Positions 13,490-41,133 of a stretch of 51,384 bases of DNA are shown here, piece after piece. The notes beneath the pieces are model-generated. The model was not told the origin of the DNA and did not search any database. It saw only the letters and a program-made list of their open reading frames with translations. The stretch is from a candidate division WOR-3 bacterium. Lineage in GTDB: Bacteria; Hydrothermota; Hydrothermia; Hydrothermales; JAJRUZ01. The stretch lies in the NCBI GenBank assembly GCA_039803925.1, contig JBDRZL010000015.1:1-51384 (forward strand). The letters run 5' to 3'. The position numbers and the translations under genes are program-made. Numbering within the stretch: position 1 is the stretch's first letter; each line of letters starts with the position of its first letter.

Positions 13490-13503
13490 CAAATTTTTTT
13501 AAG

Positions 13504-13577
13504 TGGGCGGGCGAGGATTTGAACCTCGGGCCTCCGGCTTGTAAAGCCGACGCTCTCACCATCTGAGCTACCCGCCC
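13504..13577 (-). tRNA. tRNA-Val (anticodon UAC)
   Basis: The minus strand gives a full cloverleaf. The acceptor stem is GGGCGGG/CCCGCCC. The D-arm is GCTC/GAGC. The anticodon arm is TCGGC-TTTACAA-GCCGG with anticodon TAC, which reads GUA (Val). The T-arm is CGAGG-TTCAAAT-CCTCG, with discriminator A. The 3' CCA is not encoded and must be added by a nucleotidyltransferase. The phosphodiesterase gene begins 11 nt downstream. Confidence 0.95.
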
Positions 13578-33765: not shown

Positions 33766-33789
33766 TATAATTATAAGGTTCAAGCCCTT
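33766..33789 (+). promoter_or_regulatory. TATAAT box and T-arm-like leader motif of the Roadblock/AAA+ operon
   Basis: TATAAT at 33766-33771 is followed three bases later by AAGGTTCAAGCCCTT (33775-33789), which can pair AAGG with CCTT around a 7-nt loop. AGAGG (33800-33804) and ATG 33811 follow. It is the only clear promoter before the chain of overlapping genes that runs to about 42660. Confidence 0.55.
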
Positions 33790-33810
33790 TTTAAAAAAAG
33801 AGGTTAAAAA

Positions 33811-33990
33811 ATGAACATCTCAAAAATAATATTTATACTTTCCCTTATTACTTTTATAATAGCACTTGTTTTAAAGCTTACAGGCACTGAATTCCCACAT
33901 CTTTTTAAACCCTATACCTACCTGAAAGGGACCTGGACATTACTTTTATTTTCTATTAGTTACCATTTGATTTTTGAAAAGGGGAAATAA
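33811..33990 (+). CDS. 59-residue two-helix membrane protein
   Basis: ATG 33811 follows AGAGG by 6 nt, and the frame ends at TAA 33988-33990. Residues ~4-23 (ISKIIFILSLITFIIALVLK) and ~40-52 (TWTLLLFSISYHL) are hydrophobic, with a loop containing LTGTEFPHLFKPYTYLKG between them. No known family is recognised. It is the first gene after the operon promoter and stands 27 nt before the Roadblock gene. It may be a small membrane partner of that system. Confidence 0.65.
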   Translation: MNISKIIFILSLITFIIALVLKLTGTEFPHLFKPYTYLKGTWTLLLFSISYHLIFEKGK

Positions 33991-34017
33991 AAGGGAAAAT
34001 TATTTTAAAATATATAT

Positions 34018-34416
34018 GTGAATAAAGACACTTTAATTTTAGGTGTTGAAGAATTTGTTGAATTACAGAAATTACTTGATGATTTTACATACAGAGCAAA
34101 CACACACTCTTCAATGCTTTCTACCCTTTCAGGACAATTGCTTGTTTCTTCAGGCTTTAAAACTCCCTTTAATCTCCTTGCAATATCAGCACTCCTTGCA
34201 GGAATTTTTCAAAGCACAAGAGAATTGGCAAGAATAATAGGAGAAAAAAATTTTATAACTTTTTTTCAGGAAGGTAACAGCTGGAATATATATTACACCC
34301 TGGTTGGAGAAGACCTGCTCCTTACCACCTTTTTTGATGATAGAACTATACTGGGAATGGTAGAAGTTCAGGCAAAAAAACTTGCAAAAAGGATAAATGA
34401 ACTTTTGAAAAAATGA
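34018..34416 (+). CDS. Roadblock/LC7-domain protein (MglB-like)
   Basis: 132 residues starting at GTG 34018. The fold pattern is right: MLSTLSGQLLVSSGFKT (first beta pair), LLAISALLAGIFQSTRELARIIGE (long helix), then FITFFQEGNSWNIYYTLVGEDLLLTTFF and ILGMVEVQAKKLAKRI. Roadblock proteins act as dimers that regulate small GTPases such as MglA or scaffold other proteins. No MglA-like GTPase is adjacent. The stop overlaps the AAA+ gene by 4 nt (ATGA), suggesting coupled synthesis of a complex. Confidence 0.8.
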   Translation: MNKDTLILGVEEFVELQKLLDDFTYRANTHSSMLSTLSGQLLVSSGFKTPFNLLAISALLAGIFQSTRELARIIGEKNFITFFQEGNSWNIYYTLVGEDLLLTTFFDDRTILGMVEVQAKKLAKRINELLKK

Positions 34417-36242
34417 CTCTTTTAAATCCAAGATTTACCTTTAAAAACTTTGTGGAATACAAAGGAAATAGAATGGCAAAAAGAGCACTTGAAACCATAA
34501 TAGAAGATCCACTTGTTTTCAATCCAGTCTTTATATACTCAGAACCAGGAATGGGTAAAACCCACCTTGTAACTGCCCTTACACACAGATTAAGAGAAAA
34601 AAACATTAAGGACATTTTTCTCATACCAAAAGAATTTGAAAAAAATTATGAAAAAATATACGATTTTAAAAAGGGATTTTTAATCATTGATAATTTTGAA
34701 AATTTTTCAAAAATAAAAAGTGAAATAATTGAGGAGTTCACGAATAATTTTGAAATACTTCTTGCAAATGAAGTTGAAATAATTCTCTCTTCCTCAGTTC
34801 CCTATAATGAATTAAAGGACCTACCTTTCGAACTTTTATCAAGGATAAAAGGGGGTCTCTTAATAGAAATATTGCCACCTGATGAGGAAGACATCAAAAT
34901 CATAATAAAAGAGAAACTAATTAAAAGAGGAATAGAATTAGAGGAAAGATTTATTAATTTAATTTCAAGGAAAAACTACAAAAATATAAGAGAAATAGAA
35001 GGTGATATAAATAAAATTTTTTTAAGGTTTATTTCAAAAGAAAAAATTGAAGAAAAAGATATAGAAGAGATAACAGGAATATCACTTCCTATACTATTCT
35101 TTTCAGATATAATTCCTGAAATTGAAAAAAGCCTTGAAAAATTAGAAATAGTTGCAAGGGAAGAGGAAGCTTTAAAAACAGCCTTAAAGGAAAAAATTTA
35201 TATATGGGAAATGAAGGGATTTAAAATTGATAGACTCAAAAAACTTATAGGAGTGAAAGACTTGCAGATTTTAAAAGAAGAATACAGAAAATTTATCAGC
35301 GATGTTACAAAACTGATTGAGTATCAAAAAATTTATGGTGAAATAGGAGTTCAAGATATAGAAATTGAAAAAGCTCTTTTTGATCCTGATAGGGTCTTTG
35401 AGGTTGAAAAATGGATAGAAGAAATAAAGAGTCGGGTTTCAAAAAAAGAAGAGCCAATAATTTTAGAAGAAGCAATAAAGGAAACTGAAGAAATTGAAGA
35501 AGTTATAGAAGTAAAAGAAGAAGAAAAAGTATTTATAATTGAATCTGAGTATAACAGGAATGTTCTTGAAGAAATAAAAAAACAAGCAAGAGAAGGTAAG
35601 CCTGAGATTCTACTTATCTTCTCTCAGGGAAGAAGGGGACTTTCAACTCATCTTCTTTATGCTTATGAAATAAATAAAGAAAAGAAAAAAGTTTTTTACC
35701 ACTCAAATGACATATCGGATTTATTCTTTGAAGAAGAAAGTAAACTTAATACAATTTTTAAAGATTATAATTTTATTGTGATAGATGATGCGGAAATATT
35801 TTTTGACGTTGAGGATTTAAGAGATAAAATTTTACCTTTAATTATAGAAGAAAAAAATAAGGGAAAAAAATTTTTAATAGGAATAAAGAAAAATCCTGAA
35901 GAAATCTATTTACCAGAAAAATACAAAAAATTATTTGAATCTTCAAAAAATGTTTCTTTAAAAAAACCAGATAAAAAAATACTTGAAGAAATTTTAAAGG
36001 AAAAAATAAAAAAAGAAAACTTGAATTTCGATGAAAATCTGAAAGAAGAAATTCTTAATAAAGATTTTTTTGATTTAAAAGAATTTGAAGATTATCTTGA
36101 GGAAACTCAGAAAAAAATTGAAAATAGAGTAAAAAAAGAAGAAATTGAAAAAATTCTAAAGGGAATCTCAGTTAATGAGAAAAGTAATATGATTTTTGAT
36201 ATTGAAATAATAGAAGAAAGAATTTTTGAGGATTACCCATGA
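34413..36242 (+). CDS. Tandem DnaA-like AAA+ protein, second module degenerate
   Basis: Residues 5-220 follow the DnaA AAA+ plan: FTFKNFVEYKGNRMAKRAL, Walker A EPGMGKTHL (44-52), Walker B GFLIIDNFENF (88-98), sensor-1 region EIILSSSVPYNEL, then LLSRIKGGLLIEILPPDEED and the sensor-2-like NIREIEGDINKI. The DnaA DNA-binding domain IV is missing. A helical segment (~235-345) contains EKIYIWEMKGFKI. A Glu-rich linker (345-372) leads to a second AAA+ module (~378-600). Its P-loop has become SQGRRGLSTHLL (no GKT), while a Walker-B-like FIVIDDAEIFF remains. It is coupled to the Roadblock and PATAN genes by 4-nt overlaps. A regulatory or scaffold ATPase is likely, not a replication initiator. Confidence 0.75.
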   Translation: MTLLNPRFTFKNFVEYKGNRMAKRALETIIEDPLVFNPVFIYSEPGMGKTHLVTALTHRLREKNIKDIFLIPKEFEKNYEKIYDFKKGFLIIDNFENFSKIKSEIIEEFTNNFEILLANEVEIILSSSVPYNELKDLPFELLSRIKGGLLIEILPPDEEDIKIIIKEKLIKRGIELEERFINLISRKNYKNIREIEGDINKIFLRFISKEKIEEKDIEEITGISLPILFFSDIIPEIEKSLEKLEIVAREEEALKTALKEKIYIWEMKGFKIDRLKKLIGVKDLQILKEEYRKFISDVTKLIEYQKIYGEIGVQDIEIEKALFDPDRVFEVEKWIEEIKSRVSKKEEPIILEEAIKETEEIEEVIEVKEEEKVFIIESEYNRNVLEEIKKQAREGKPEILLIFSQGRRGLSTHLLYAYEINKEKKKVFYHSNDISDLFFEEESKLNTIFKDYNFIVIDDAEIFFDVEDLRDKILPLIIEEKNKGKKFLIGIKKNPEEIYLPEKYKKLFESSKNVSLKKPDKKILEEILKEKIKKENLNFDENLKEEILNKDFFDLKEFEDYLEETQKKIENRVKKEEIEKILKGISVNEKSNMIFDIEIIEERIFEDYP

Positions 36243-37816
36243 GAGGTTCTCTTAAAGAGGTGCCTTTTTCTGATGTGGTTCAGTTGATGGTTATGGGTAA
36301 AAAAACAGGAAGGTTATCAGTAACAAATGGAGAAGATTTTTTAGAACTATATTTTAAAGGGGGAATAGTAATATATGGTAAAATGGTTAATAGACCTGAG
36401 AGAATAGGGGAAATTCTTTTAGCGAAAGGAATAATTGATGAGGAAAAGTTAAAAGAAGCCAAATCACTTGTTGAAAAAGGAAAACCAAATATAGGAAGTG
36501 CTCTTTTAGAACTTAATGTTCCAGAAAAGGAAATTAAAAAAACCTATGAAGAGGAAATTAAAAAATTTGTTGCCAATGCAATTTCATGGAATGATGGATA
36601 TTTTAACTTTGAACCTGATGAATTTCCAAAGGAAAGACCTGTTGTTTCTATTGATCCTTCTTATCTACTTTTAGAATCTGCAAGAACCTTTGATGAATGG
36701 CGAAAAATAGAAGATATTATTCCATCCTTAAATGAAATATGTCTTTTAAAAGACAAAACCTATGAGCCAAAAGATGAAAAAGAAGCTAAAATTATTGAAC
36801 GAATTGATGAAAAAAAAACTGTAAAAGAAATTTTAGAGGAAACAGGTGAAAATCTCTTTGACCTTGCTGAGGCTTTTAAAAATCTCCTCTTAAAAGGGGT
36901 TATAGAAACAAAAGAAAAAATTGAAAAGGAAGAAGTTTCAAAAGCAAAAATTCTTGAACATATAAACTTAGGGTATGCCTTTTTAAAAACAGGATTATTG
37001 GAAGAGGCTGAAAGAGAATTTAAAAGACTCAATGAACTTGCTCCCCATAAACCAGAAGGTTATTTTTATTTAGGGCTTCTTTTTATTTATAAAAAGGAGT
37101 TCGAAAAAGCAATTTCTTATCTAAATGAAGCATTAAAATTAGACCCACTTAATCCAAAAATACTTAACAATTTGCTTTATATTTACCTCGAAACTAAAAG
37201 GTTAGAGGAAGCAGAAAAAATTATAAAAGAGCTAGATGAAAGCAAAATTGATGATGAAAGATTCTTACTTAATAAGGCAATTTATTTTGAAAAAATTGGG
37301 GAAAAAGAAAAGTCAGAGGAAATAATAAGAGCATTAATGAAGGAAAAATCTTTCTTAAAAACACCTTATATTCTTCTTGCTCAGAAACTTTATAATGAAA
37401 AAAAGTTTCTTCAGGTTATAGAGATACTTTCAATAATAAAAGGCTATGATCCGAAAAATCCTGAAGTTAATTATGGTCTCGGTTTATCATACAGAGCTTT
37501 AGGGAAAATAAAGGAAGCTGAAGAATTTTTGAAAAATGCTATGAAACTATCTCCATCAAATATAAAGTATAAACTCGCCCTTGCTGATTTTTATTACGAA
37601 AAGGGAAAATTTGATGAATGTAAAAATCTATACACACAAGTTTTATCAATTGATAAACTCAACAAGGAAGCCTTATTCAGAATGGGAAATATTTATTTAA
37701 AAGAAGGTAAATACGAAAATGCTCTTAAATATTTTGAAGAGATCTTAAAAATTGAACCTGAAAACAGAGTGGTAAAAAGAAATGTTGAAATTATCAGAAA
37801 AACTATTAATGTTTGA
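36239..37816 (+). CDS. PATAN/DUF4388 domain protein with TPR repeats
   Basis: Residues 1-~165 are a PATAN (DUF4388) domain: MRGSLKEVPFSDVVQLM, GKKTGRLSVTNGEDFLELYF, GGIVIYG, and ILLAKGIIDEEKL with FVANAISWNDGYFNFEPDE. Residues ~170-230 look like a winged-helix-type linker (EAKIIERIDEKKTVKEILEE). Residues ~235-525 hold about eight TPR repeats (NLGYAFLKTGLLEEAEREF, YFYLGLLFIYKKEFEKAI, EALFRMGNIYLKEGKYENAL). PATAN domains occur in two-component and gliding-type signalling proteins. The neighbouring Roadblock, AAA+ and CheR-like genes point to a shared pathway. It overlaps them by 4 and 8 nt. Confidence 0.82.
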   Translation: MRGSLKEVPFSDVVQLMVMGKKTGRLSVTNGEDFLELYFKGGIVIYGKMVNRPERIGEILLAKGIIDEEKLKEAKSLVEKGKPNIGSALLELNVPEKEIKKTYEEEIKKFVANAISWNDGYFNFEPDEFPKERPVVSIDPSYLLLESARTFDEWRKIEDIIPSLNEICLLKDKTYEPKDEKEAKIIERIDEKKTVKEILEETGENLFDLAEAFKNLLLKGVIETKEKIEKEEVSKAKILEHINLGYAFLKTGLLEEAEREFKRLNELAPHKPEGYFYLGLLFIYKKEFEKAISYLNEALKLDPLNPKILNNLLYIYLETKRLEEAEKIIKELDESKIDDERFLLNKAIYFEKIGEKEKSEEIIRALMKEKSFLKTPYILLAQKLYNEKKFLQVIEILSIIKGYDPKNPEVNYGLGLSYRALGKIKEAEEFLKNAMKLSPSNIKYKLALADFYYEKGKFDECKNLYTQVLSIDKLNKEALFRMGNIYLKEGKYENALKYFEEILKIEPENRVVKRNVEIIRKTINV

Positions 37817-38579
37817 TTTAAAAAGTATAAAAGAAATAATACTTGAAAAAACAGGTATTGATTTATCCTATTACAGAGATAGTTACCTTGAAAGAAGAAT
37901 AAGAGTAAGGATGAGGAAAAGCGGGTTTTCAAATTTTTTCGATTATATTGAAAAACTGGAAAGTGATTTTGAAGAAAGAAAAAAATTTATAGATGAAATA
38001 GGAATAAATGTATCATACTTTTTCAGAAATAAAACTACCTTTGAAGAGATAAGAAGGTTAATTATACCTGAGTTAAGAAATAGAAAAACAATTAATATAT
38101 GGAGTGCTGGATGTGCTTCTGGAGAAGAACCTTATTCCTTAGCTATAATTTTAAATGAAGAAAAAATAGAAAACTACAAAATATTGGCAACGGATATTGA
38201 TAGTGAAATAATTGAAAAGGCAAAAGAAGGGATTTATTCCCCTGATAAGTTTATTGAAACACCTAAGGAATTTATTGAAAAATATTTTTCTAAAATAAAT
38301 GAAAAATATAAAATAGTTGAGTATTTGAAAAAAAATATTACATTTTTTCTTCATGATGTAATAAAAAAACCACCACTTTTTAATTTTGACCTCGTTCTTT
38401 GCAGAAATGTTGTTATATATTTTATTAAGGATAAACAAAAAATTGTATTCGAAAATCTATATAATAGCCTGAAAAAAGGGGGGTTTCTTGTTCTTGGTAA
38501 AACAGAATTCCTTCCCTTTGAATTTAATGATAAATTTGATTACATTTCAAAATCTGAAAGAATATTGAAAAAATTATGA
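37809..38579 (+). CDS. CheR-type SAM-dependent protein methyltransferase
   Basis: The start is taken at ATG 37809, which overlaps the previous stop by 8 nt; an upstream ATG at 37782 would add nine residues. The N-terminal CheR helical domain has TGIDLSYYRDSYLERRIRVRM. The catalytic domain has NVSYFFRN, then the SAM-binding IWSAGCASGEEPYSLAIIL, ILATDIDSEII, FDLVLCRNVVIYF and GGFLVLGKTE. CheR enzymes methylate glutamates on chemoreceptors, but no receptor, CheA, CheW or CheB is present here. The substrate may be another protein in this operon. It overlaps the next gene by 4 nt. Confidence 0.9.
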   Translation: MFDLKSIKEIILEKTGIDLSYYRDSYLERRIRVRMRKSGFSNFFDYIEKLESDFEERKKFIDEIGINVSYFFRNKTTFEEIRRLIIPELRNRKTINIWSAGCASGEEPYSLAIILNEEKIENYKILATDIDSEIIEKAKEGIYSPDKFIETPKEFIEKYFSKINEKYKIVEYLKKNITFFLHDVIKKPPLFNFDLVLCRNVVIYFIKDKQKIVFENLYNSLKKGGFLVLGKTEFLPFEFNDKFDYISKSERILKKL

Positions 38580-40396
38580 AAGAAGAAAAATTTTTTATTC
38601 CTGTTTTGGATACAAATTACGAGGAAAGTTACAATTTAAGTTATCCAGAATGGAGAATAAAATTTGAGAAATTATTACAGGAAATGGAAAAGGGAAATCT
38701 AAGATATATATATTTAGGAGCAAATACTTCCTTTTTCCTTAGATTTTATAAAGAAAACATTTTAGAAGAAATTAAAATAAATCTTCCCCTTAGATTAAAA
38801 AAAATTGGTTTAAACACACTTTATTACTTTATTCCAGTAAATGTTATTGATTCCTTTTCCTTGATTTTAAACTTTAAAATTATTTTTGAAGAATTGAAGG
38901 AAAGTTTTTCAGGAGAAAGAACACTTTACTTGCCTTATATAAATAAACTTCCTAAAGGATTTTTAGCACTTTTAAAGGGATTTGGCATAGAATTCATATT
39001 TTCAAGAGTTCCTGTAAAAAGACCCTACTTAATAAGGAATGATATTGAAAATGATATAAAAATAGTTAATGTTTCTTCTGACTCAAAAATTGTATTTCTT
39101 GATTCCTTTCTAATAAATGAAGATATAAGTAAAAATTTATTCTCTATTGAAGAGATAACATCAAGTATTCCTGATAAGGGTGAATTGTATGAATTTAAAT
39201 CAGAAGTCAAAATCAAGAAAAGTTTTCCATATTTTAAAAAACTTGAAGAAGTTATTTTTAAATACCATATTTTAAACACAGTATTAAAAATTGAAAATCC
39301 TAATATTTCAAATTATTATATTAAAGAAAAAATAAAAAATTTTTTAACCCTCTATAATTCAGAAAATATCGAACTTTTAAAGGAAGAAATAAGGGAAATA
39401 AAGCAATATGGTAAAAAGTTAAAAGAAGATTTTCTTGATAATAGTAAAAAATTCTCAGTCTTCAATCCTTTACCCTATAAATTTAATTATTACAGAATAA
39501 TAAATAACAAACTTTATAAAGCAGAAGCTAAACCTTTTTCCTTTTCAGAATTGAAGGAAGAAGAATCCTATGAAAAAAATCTGGATTTTAGAATTTATAA
39601 TAGAGGTAACATAAAATTTTATGAACTTTTAATTCTTACAAAATTAATTGGTGAAAAAGGTGAACTTAAAGGTGGAATTTTTGAAGAAGAAGTTATAAAG
39701 GAAAACTTTATTAAAACTAAATCAAAATTAAGATTGAGTGATAAATCTTACGATTATTCAATTACATTAATTCCTCATGATAACCTTTTAAAAATAAGAG
39801 GAAAACTAAAAAATATAAATAAATGTGAAATTTTAATAGGTAGTGAAAAGAACTTAAATATTAGGGAATTTTCCCTCTTTGAATTAGAGGAATTGACTCT
39901 TGAGAAAACCTATTCCGGTTTTCTTATTATTGATGGTGATAACAGATATCTTATAAAAACAATACCTGGAATAGGTGTTAAAAAATATAACAATACCTTG
40001 AAACTTATTTTTGAAGGAAAGGTAAGCTTTGATATAAAGAAAATTTCTGAATCTTTAATCCTTGAGTATATGAAGTATAAATATAAACCCATTATTTTTG
40101 AAGGCTTACCTAAAAAGGAACTTTCTTCAATTTTTGAAATAAAAAATGAAGATACAAATTTTATTTATATGGATGTTAAAGAAAATATGCTTTATATATA
40201 CCTTTATTCAGAGGAAAAAGATAATATAAAAATTCTTTTTAAGGGAAAACCTCTTGAAGCTTTTATTTTTGACTTAAAGGCTAATAAAAAACTTGATAAA
40301 GTTATGATTAGGGATAGATGGGTAATAATACCCCCAAAAAAGGGAATTTTCTGTATTGGGGTTGACATAAAAACTTTCCCCTTTTCAATATTTTAA
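38576..40396 (+). CDS. Unknown 606-residue protein, possibly a degenerate GH38-like hydrolase
   Basis: No motif is secure. The N-terminal ~160 residues look like a (beta/alpha) barrel half, with TLYLPYINKLPKGFLALLKG and FGIEFIFSRVP reminiscent of the Pro-x-x-x-Gly and GFxxFxxxR segments of glycoside hydrolase family 38. A helical middle (~215-285) is followed by SVFNPLPYKFNYYRI (~293), like the NxLxW start of the GH38 C-terminal beta domain, and long beta strands to the end. Catalytic Asp motifs are not recognisable. No signal peptide is seen. It is coupled to the CheR gene by a 4-nt overlap and to the M28 gene by TAATG. Confidence 0.4.
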   Translation: MKEEKFFIPVLDTNYEESYNLSYPEWRIKFEKLLQEMEKGNLRYIYLGANTSFFLRFYKENILEEIKINLPLRLKKIGLNTLYYFIPVNVIDSFSLILNFKIIFEELKESFSGERTLYLPYINKLPKGFLALLKGFGIEFIFSRVPVKRPYLIRNDIENDIKIVNVSSDSKIVFLDSFLINEDISKNLFSIEEITSSIPDKGELYEFKSEVKIKKSFPYFKKLEEVIFKYHILNTVLKIENPNISNYYIKEKIKNFLTLYNSENIELLKEEIREIKQYGKKLKEDFLDNSKKFSVFNPLPYKFNYYRIINNKLYKAEAKPFSFSELKEEESYEKNLDFRIYNRGNIKFYELLILTKLIGEKGELKGGIFEEEVIKENFIKTKSKLRLSDKSYDYSITLIPHDNLLKIRGKLKNINKCEILIGSEKNLNIREFSLFELEELTLEKTYSGFLIIDGDNRYLIKTIPGIGVKKYNNTLKLIFEGKVSFDIKKISESLILEYMKYKYKPIIFEGLPKKELSSIFEIKNEDTNFIYMDVKENMLYIYLYSEEKDNIKILFKGKPLEAFIFDLKANKKLDKVMIRDRWVIIPPKKGIFCIGVDIKTFPFSIF

Positions 40397-41133
40397 TGAT
40401 AAAAGATTCAATTTTATTTTTTTATATGAATTTTTTAATGTCAATTGGACCAAGAGTTCCTGGAACTTATGCACATGAAAGTTTGAGAAAATTTCTCTTA
40501 AAGGAATTTGAAAGAATGGGATTTAAATCTGAGATTGACTCTTTCTATGAAGATGGGTATAAATTTTTTAATTTAATATTTAAAAAAGGAAAAGGAAATT
40601 TCATACTTCTTGGAACCCACTATGATACAAAGCCTGGTATAGAAGGAGCAAATGATTCAGGTTCAGGTGTTCTTTTACTTTTATATTTGGCAAATTTACT
40701 TAAAAAAACTCATAAAAATTTTCTATTTGTCTTCTTTGACGGGGAAGATTTCGGTTATAACGCACCTCTTTACGGTTCAAAACATTTTGCAAAAACAAAA
40801 AATTATAAAATTGAATGGGGAGTCATTTTTGATATGATCGGTGACAAAAACCTTGAAATTTTTATGGAGGGTTTTTCATATGAATCAGCACCGGATTTAA
40901 CCTTAAAAATTTTTAATTTTGCAGAAAAAAAGAAAAAAGATTTTATGTTCAAAAATATAAAACACTACATAATTGATGACCATTTACCCCTTCTAAGGGA
41001 AGGGGAAAAGGTTATTCTTTTAATTGATTTTGACTACCCTTACTGGCACACAGAAGAAGATACATGGGATAAGATAAGTATAGAAAATATAAAAAAATTA
41101 GGGGAATTCTTTTTTGAATATTTAAATGAATAA
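40396..41133 (+). CDS. M28-family zinc peptidase (glutaminyl cyclase-like)
   Basis: Zinc ligands in order: THYDTK (His, with Asp two residues on), GANDSGSG (bridging Asp), DGEDFG (general base Glu and Glu/Asp ligand), FDMIGD (Asp) and YWHTEEDT (His). PRVPGTYAHESLRKFLLKEF is the usual M28 start. At 245 residues it is the short, single-domain form that includes glutaminyl-peptide cyclotransferase-like proteins. No signal peptide, so probably cytoplasmic. The start overlaps the upstream stop by one base (TAATG). Confidence 0.85.
   Translation: MIKDSILFFYMNFLMSIGPRVPGTYAHESLRKFLLKEFERMGFKSEIDSFYEDGYKFFNLIFKKGKGNFILLGTHYDTKPGIEGANDSGSGVLLLLYLANLLKKTHKNFLFVFFDGEDFGYNAPLYGSKHFAKTKNYKIEWGVIFDMIGDKNLEIFMEGFSYESAPDLTLKIFNFAEKKKKDFMFKNIKHYIIDDHLPLLREGEKVILLIDFDYPYWHTEEDTWDKISIENIKKLGEFFFEYLNE

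Follow-up and report, generated by a model that had tools for sequence, protein, structure and literature searches.

Seven genes follow one another on the plus strand at positions 33811-41133 of the window, the 51,384-nucleotide stretch analysed here, which forms the start of contig C15 in a genome of 1.84 Mb (96% complete). Using Pfam and NCBIfam models for the family assignments, we found all the families that a preliminary description had read from the sequence, in the order 59-aa transmembrane (TM) protein, Roadblock/LC7 protein, DnaA-type AAA protein, DUF4388 (PATAN)-TPR protein, CheR, 606-aa protein and M28 peptidase. The features of the row are:

33766-33771, plus strand: TATAAT hexamer, proposed as a -10 box; present, at best a possible promoter element
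33811-33990, plus strand: 59-aa membrane protein with one TM helix (phmmer 7e-36 to 6e-23 in G001-G003)
34018-34416, plus strand: Roadblock/LC7 protein, MglB type (PDB MglB match 2.5e-16 over 124 residues)
34413-36242, plus strand: DnaA-like AAA+ protein (module 1, residues ~4-225; helical linker, residues ~256-343; degenerate module 2, residues ~372-575)
35175-35441, plus strand: helical linker "YIWEMKGF", the best-conserved segment of the AAA protein
36239-37816, plus strand: PATAN (DUF4388) and TPR protein (DUF4388 1.6e-22, TPR_2 3.5e-33)
37809-38579, plus strand: CheR chemoreceptor methyltransferase (CheR 3.9e-55, CheR_N 7.6e-15)
38576-40396, plus strand: 606-aa protein, possibly degenerate GH38-like
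40396-41133, plus strand: M28-family metallopeptidase (Peptidase_M28 8.2e-28)

Nearly all junctions overlap by 1-8 nt, as had been described: a 27-nt gap follows the 59-aa gene, and from the Roadblock gene on the overlaps are 4, 4, 8, 4 and 1 nt, the 8-nt overlap of CheR with the PATAN/TPR gene being given by the CheR ATG at 37809. The suggestion that a single TATAAT promoter drives the row fared less well, in that the hexamer is present but promoter-like matches in the region are not enriched (55 observed vs 47.6 +/- 6.6 in shuffles), and an alignment of the upstream region showed the hexamer to be lost in G002. PADLOC and PHROGs searches of the row yielded no defence or phage assignment, and the weak PADLOC matches (mad2/mad8 and others) corresponded to common AAA, methyltransferase or TPR domains.

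The Roadblock protein has MglB as its best PDB match and scored 21.3 bits with Robl_LC7, just below the 23-bit cut-off; its match to the NCBIfam Thermus MglB model (3.3e-12, 46.8 bits) missed the equivalog cut-off of 200 bits. The 59-aa membrane protein is confined to the window's own family (f1), where homologs of the 606-aa protein were also found, exclusively so among the loci compared, and the M28 peptidase occupies this row position only in the same family. The 606-aa protein gave no Pfam or NCBIfam family match. Foldseek returned GH38 mannosidases as all five best matches to its structure model, a resemblance that is a lead only because the model was built from four sequences and has a pLDDT of 46. 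The 606-aa protein and the peptidase would be family-specific passengers of the row.

The AAA protein had been described as a double DnaA-like AAA+, and two modules are indeed present, but they are uneven. Module 1 is a clear match to Bac_DnaA (HMM search, 7.2e-23) and fits the DnaA domain III structure 8bv3 with a TM-score of 0.82 by target length, whereas module 2 is degenerate in the window protein (HMM E = 0.02, Walker A lysine missing); an AAA fold is nevertheless predicted for it in the structure model. Outside the two modules no Pfam or NCBIfam domain was matched, leaving the protein without a recognised DnaA C-terminal DNA-binding domain, and a separate full-length DnaA is encoded at C3:60330 of the same genome. 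The segment between the modules is predicted as a set of helices and showed no Pfam and no PDB match. It is better conserved than either module (mean pairwise identity among 16 AAA homologs: linker 46%, module 1 32%, module 2 24%), and its profile was detected in 55 of 147 genomes of the phylum, as a single copy in 54. Homologs of the AAA protein occur across the phylum, its named relatives being WOR-3/Stahlbacteria genomes (Caldifarciminota in present taxonomy), while one scan outside the phylum with peptide patterns of a single sequence retrieved only WOR-3 relatives and a plain DnaA. The Walker A losses alternate, with the module 2 lysine gone in the window's family and the module 1 motif gone in f20, and families f14 and f19 have an AAA protein with one module only. 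One ATPase module therefore seems to be enough, with the linker kept throughout.

A search of relatives for a conserved neighbourhood, as the preliminary description had proposed, showed that the order Roadblock, AAA+, PATAN/TPR, mostly then CheR, is kept across the WOR-3 phylum. The PATAN/TPR gene lies directly 3' of the AAA gene in every locus with continuing sequence, and the AAA gene is directly preceded by Roadblock or MglA in nearly all loci (exceptions, L060 and L061; L059 and L106 reach the end of a contig or come close to it), which bears out the idea that these genes form a unit. The loci of this comparison are not all independent, since some genomes appear in it under two names (e.g., L034 and L108). 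In 41 of 56 loci CheR was found 1.9-3.0 kb downstream of the linker gene in the same orientation, and 29 of 56 have MglA on the upstream side. Where a linker genome has CheR, the two are adjacent in 41 of 45 cases. The sequences come from metagenome assemblies, many of them fragmented, and non-adjacency in G063, G090 and G092 may reflect contig breaks, since CheR starts there no more than about 0.8 kb from the end of another contig. The linker co-occurs with CheR (p = 4e-19) and with CheA (p = 1e-21), p-values that ignore the relatedness of the genomes, and chance is far from explaining the gene order. Most relatives have CheD-CheB and a TPR gene downstream of CheR, joined by CheW and MCP in f14 and f25, and PilT lies upstream of MglA in several. 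The phylum-wide order is MglA/MglB - DnaA-like AAA - PATAN/TPR - CheR - CheD - CheB, and one genome (G048) combines the chemosensory genes in a single run (CheA-CheC-TPR-PATAN-TPR-Robl-Robl-AAA-PATAN-CheR-CheD-CheB).

In the window's genome, CheA, CheW, CheY, CheB and MCP are all encoded on contigs other than the window's. CheA, CheY, CheW and CheC are at C7, adjoining PilC and PilS/PilR-like genes (PilS/PilR judged by eye), and CheD-CheB is at C9; a kinase-free chemosensory system is ruled out by the CheA on C7. MglA, which the preliminary description had recommended looking for elsewhere in the genome, was found at C6:10054, where it and a second MglB-type protein adjoin PilB-PilB-PilT genes; this MglA shares 58% identity with the one next to the AAA gene in L035. 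PilB, PilT and PilC are thus present, the PilB/PilT split being made from length and motifs on the common T2SSE family. The window CheR, whose best PDB match is a chemotaxis protein methyltransferase (5ftw, 2.7e-50), was the only CheR recovered by the genome search. Among three MCP-like proteins, the one on C9 contains two strict-pattern methylation-type sites (270 and 522, vs 0.05 expected), placed symmetrically at ~125 residues from the receptor tip (near residue 400) in each direction, and judging from these sites it is likely the substrate of the window CheR. The claim that no MglA, MCP, CheA, CheW or CheB is encoded nearby therefore holds within the 51-kb window but not beyond it, as all of them occur elsewhere in the genome and beside the row in relatives. 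The simplest reading is that the window CheR serves chemoreceptors and that this family scattered an ancestral operon. From the scattered Che, MCP and MglA-MglB genes and the order in relatives, we therefore infer a largely complete chemotaxis/MglA module that uses the proteins of the row.

In our view the row probably (roughly 0.75) encodes the adaptation-and-output branch of a pathway by which WOR-3 (Caldifarciminota) bacteria control type IV pili through chemosensory and polarity proteins, a branch that in this family would be split from the remaining genes. The DnaA-like AAA protein would be an addition to that pathway, serving the MglA-MglB axis as a scaffold or switch powered by ATP. MCP-CheW-CheA arrays would sense, CheR together with CheB/CheD would adapt the MCPs by methylation, and the MglB-type Roadblock protein would act on MglA, the polarity GTPase. 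The PATAN/TPR protein may be the adaptor through which the output reaches the motor for pilus extension. There are precedents for both of its parts: in cyanobacteria, PATAN domains bind PilB, the pilus motor, and determine the direction of twitching (PMC10519157, PMC7690835), and in Myxococcus the TPR protein SgmX, recruited by MglA, couples this GTPase to pilus activation and causes PilB to localize by a mechanism not yet known (PMC11580455). The proximity of MglA/MglB genes to PATAN genes has been noted earlier (PMC4316618). The AAA protein could act as an ATP-state-dependent scaffold or switch whose helical linker docks the Roadblock/MglA and PATAN partners, and one working ATPase module would control assembly, with the result that the pilus machinery would become active at a single pole. 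Such a role is plausible; drawn from gene position and the conserved linker, it is the least certain step of the mechanism. The parts lie on different contigs in the window's family, so that their joint regulation is conjectural there. The one cultured WOR-3 strain, sy37, has pili, with no motility seen (PMC12285271), so that its pili may serve adhesion or sensing.

A different, rather unlikely reading takes the AAA protein chiefly for an ATPase of pilus assembly or motor positioning, with MglA and the chemosensory genes as no more than its regulators. The protein would parallel the MshEN-DnaA ATPases encoded between a TPR gene and PilM in the PilM-PilQ pilus operons of other WOR-3 genomes, and the PilT genes upstream of MglA-AAA in several relatives fit this reading as well. 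However, the AAA protein has no MshEN domain, and the MshEN-DnaA proteins showed no match to its linker. The tree of DnaA-like modules lacks resolution at depth and speaks neither for nor against a common origin with those ATPases.

The preliminary description itself favoured a separate signalling complex with no tie to chemotaxis, in which CheR would methylate the AAA, Roadblock or PATAN protein and the AAA protein would be an independent switch. We regard this as improbable. In its favour, the 51-kb window holds no chemotaxis or MglA gene besides the CheR of the row, and Roadblock-AAA-PATAN can exist without CheA or CheR: genus g56 keeps these three genes but has no CheA and at most a very weak match to CheR, and G043 keeps AAA-PATAN without CheA, CheB, CheW, MCP or a convincing CheR. 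Roadblock-AAA-PATAN is thus a separable core, which need not always be driven by chemotaxis. This fits the idea of a unit, but not of one centred on CheR, since the loss of CheA and of a clear CheR from g56 with retention of the core indicates that CheR goes with chemotaxis. Furthermore, the window's genome pairs its sole CheR with CheA, CheY, CheW, CheC, CheB, CheD and an MCP with methylation-type sites, and CheD-CheB follow CheR in relatives. With MglA and the chemosensory partners scattered elsewhere in the genome and no second CheR found there, a CheR that acts on a non-receptor partner in a system without MglA is not supported, while the conserved gene unit stands. G004, from the same order as the window's genome, keeps CheA and CheB and has neither CheR nor the AAA protein, an absence that may be a loss or an assembly gap. 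Least credible of all is a DnaA paralog with a role on DNA (transcription or replication control) whose place in the operon would be accidental. Module 1 is clearly DnaA domain III, but no recognised DNA-binding domain accompanies it, and the gene order is kept phylum-wide while the modules drift apart in sequence and lose their Walker A motifs in alternation.

The adaptation-and-output branch proposed here shares parts with several known systems. One of the closest is that of Myxococcus xanthus, with its MglA/MglB polarity module, Frz chemosensory input and TPR effector SgmX (PMC11580455, PMC10329633). Common to both are chemosensory input, the GTPase MglA, a Roadblock protein of MglB type and a TPR protein that is a candidate for making the connection to the pilus motor, whereas the WOR-3 rows have a DnaA-like AAA protein with a new linker, PATAN fused to TPRs, and CheD. 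Cyanobacterial Tax/Pix phototaxis likewise couples a chemosensory pathway to a PATAN output that binds the PilB motor (PMC7690835, PMC10519157), but PATAN is combined there with a receiver domain and here with TPRs, with MglA/MglB and AAA adjoining. Chemosensory control of type IV pilus polarity is also known from Pseudomonas Pil-Chp (PMC10519157). MglA/MglB and the AAA protein are additions of the WOR-3 rows, and the two systems also differ in CheD and in gene order. Compared with the DnaA/Hda AAA+ family, module 1 matches DnaA domain III, while the WOR-3 protein consists of two modules around a helical linker, with degenerate motifs and no recognised DNA-binding domain. No DnaA-like ATPase in chemotaxis or MglA/pilus systems was found in the open-licence literature, and as far as could be found it is a component so far undescribed in polarity or chemotaxis pilus systems.

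More tentatively, Roadblock/MglA - DnaA-like AAA - PATAN/TPR could constitute a separate kind of polarity switch: a replication-initiator-type ATPase would use a new helical domain to assemble or relocate MglA/MglB and the pilus-motor adaptor at the pole, with or without chemosensory input. Such ATP-driven polarity control is not known in Myxococcus or Pseudomonas. Overall, a little-studied phylum appears to join small-GTPase polarity, chemotaxis-type adaptation and the type IV pilus motor, which are usually studied apart, and to add an ATPase built from DnaA modules. The one-copy AAA protein with its linker may thereby offer a concrete candidate for the coupling of MglA to the pilus motor, a step that is still open in Myxococcus.

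Coupling of genes for the 606-aa protein, which is possibly GH38-like, and an M28 peptidase to CheR was confined to the window's family, and CheD-CheB occupy the same position in relatives.

Window 38576-41133, 606-aa protein and M28 peptidase genes
Window 13503-13577, -, tRNA-Val (tac), the sole RNA gene found in the window

Elsewhere in this genome, we found two further small proteins, the second of which had no Pfam match and is encoded downstream of CheC-TPR-PATAN-TPR, where a Roadblock gene holds the equivalent place in the relative G048.

L069:9751-10110, -, third Roadblock protein (21.3 bits)
L076:3690-4025, -, 112-aa protein

Families f14 and f25 encode a second ATPase, with an ExeA-like beginning ('YWGLSKKPFSNTPD'), between CheB-TPR and CheW-MCP.

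L056:12945-13778, AAA_22-type ATPase
L066:14359-15159, AAA_22-type ATPase
L064:11078-11878, AAA_22-type ATPase

In other WOR-3 genomes, a DnaA-type ATPase gene adjoins PilM within PilM-PilO-PilQ operons; searching the window's genome with the window's DnaA-like AAA+ protein did not recover this type.

L085:5238-6449, DnaA-type ATPase with N-terminal MshEN domain (Pfam)
L086-L090, DnaA-type ATPases, MshEN type

An MCP signalling region was also found joined to a family-5 solute-binding domain (SBP_bac_5; Pfam-checked in L078 and L079), with no transmembrane helices predicted.

L078:8243-11350, -, MCP-SBP_bac_5 fusion
L079:10757-13963, -, MCP-SBP_bac_5 fusion
L080:8854-12021, +, MCP fusion of the same type

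CheW/CheY/CheA adjoin the fusion gene in L079 and L080, and in the window's genome it stands without them. If a soluble peptide-sensing chemoreceptor, this fusion would be of an unusual type.
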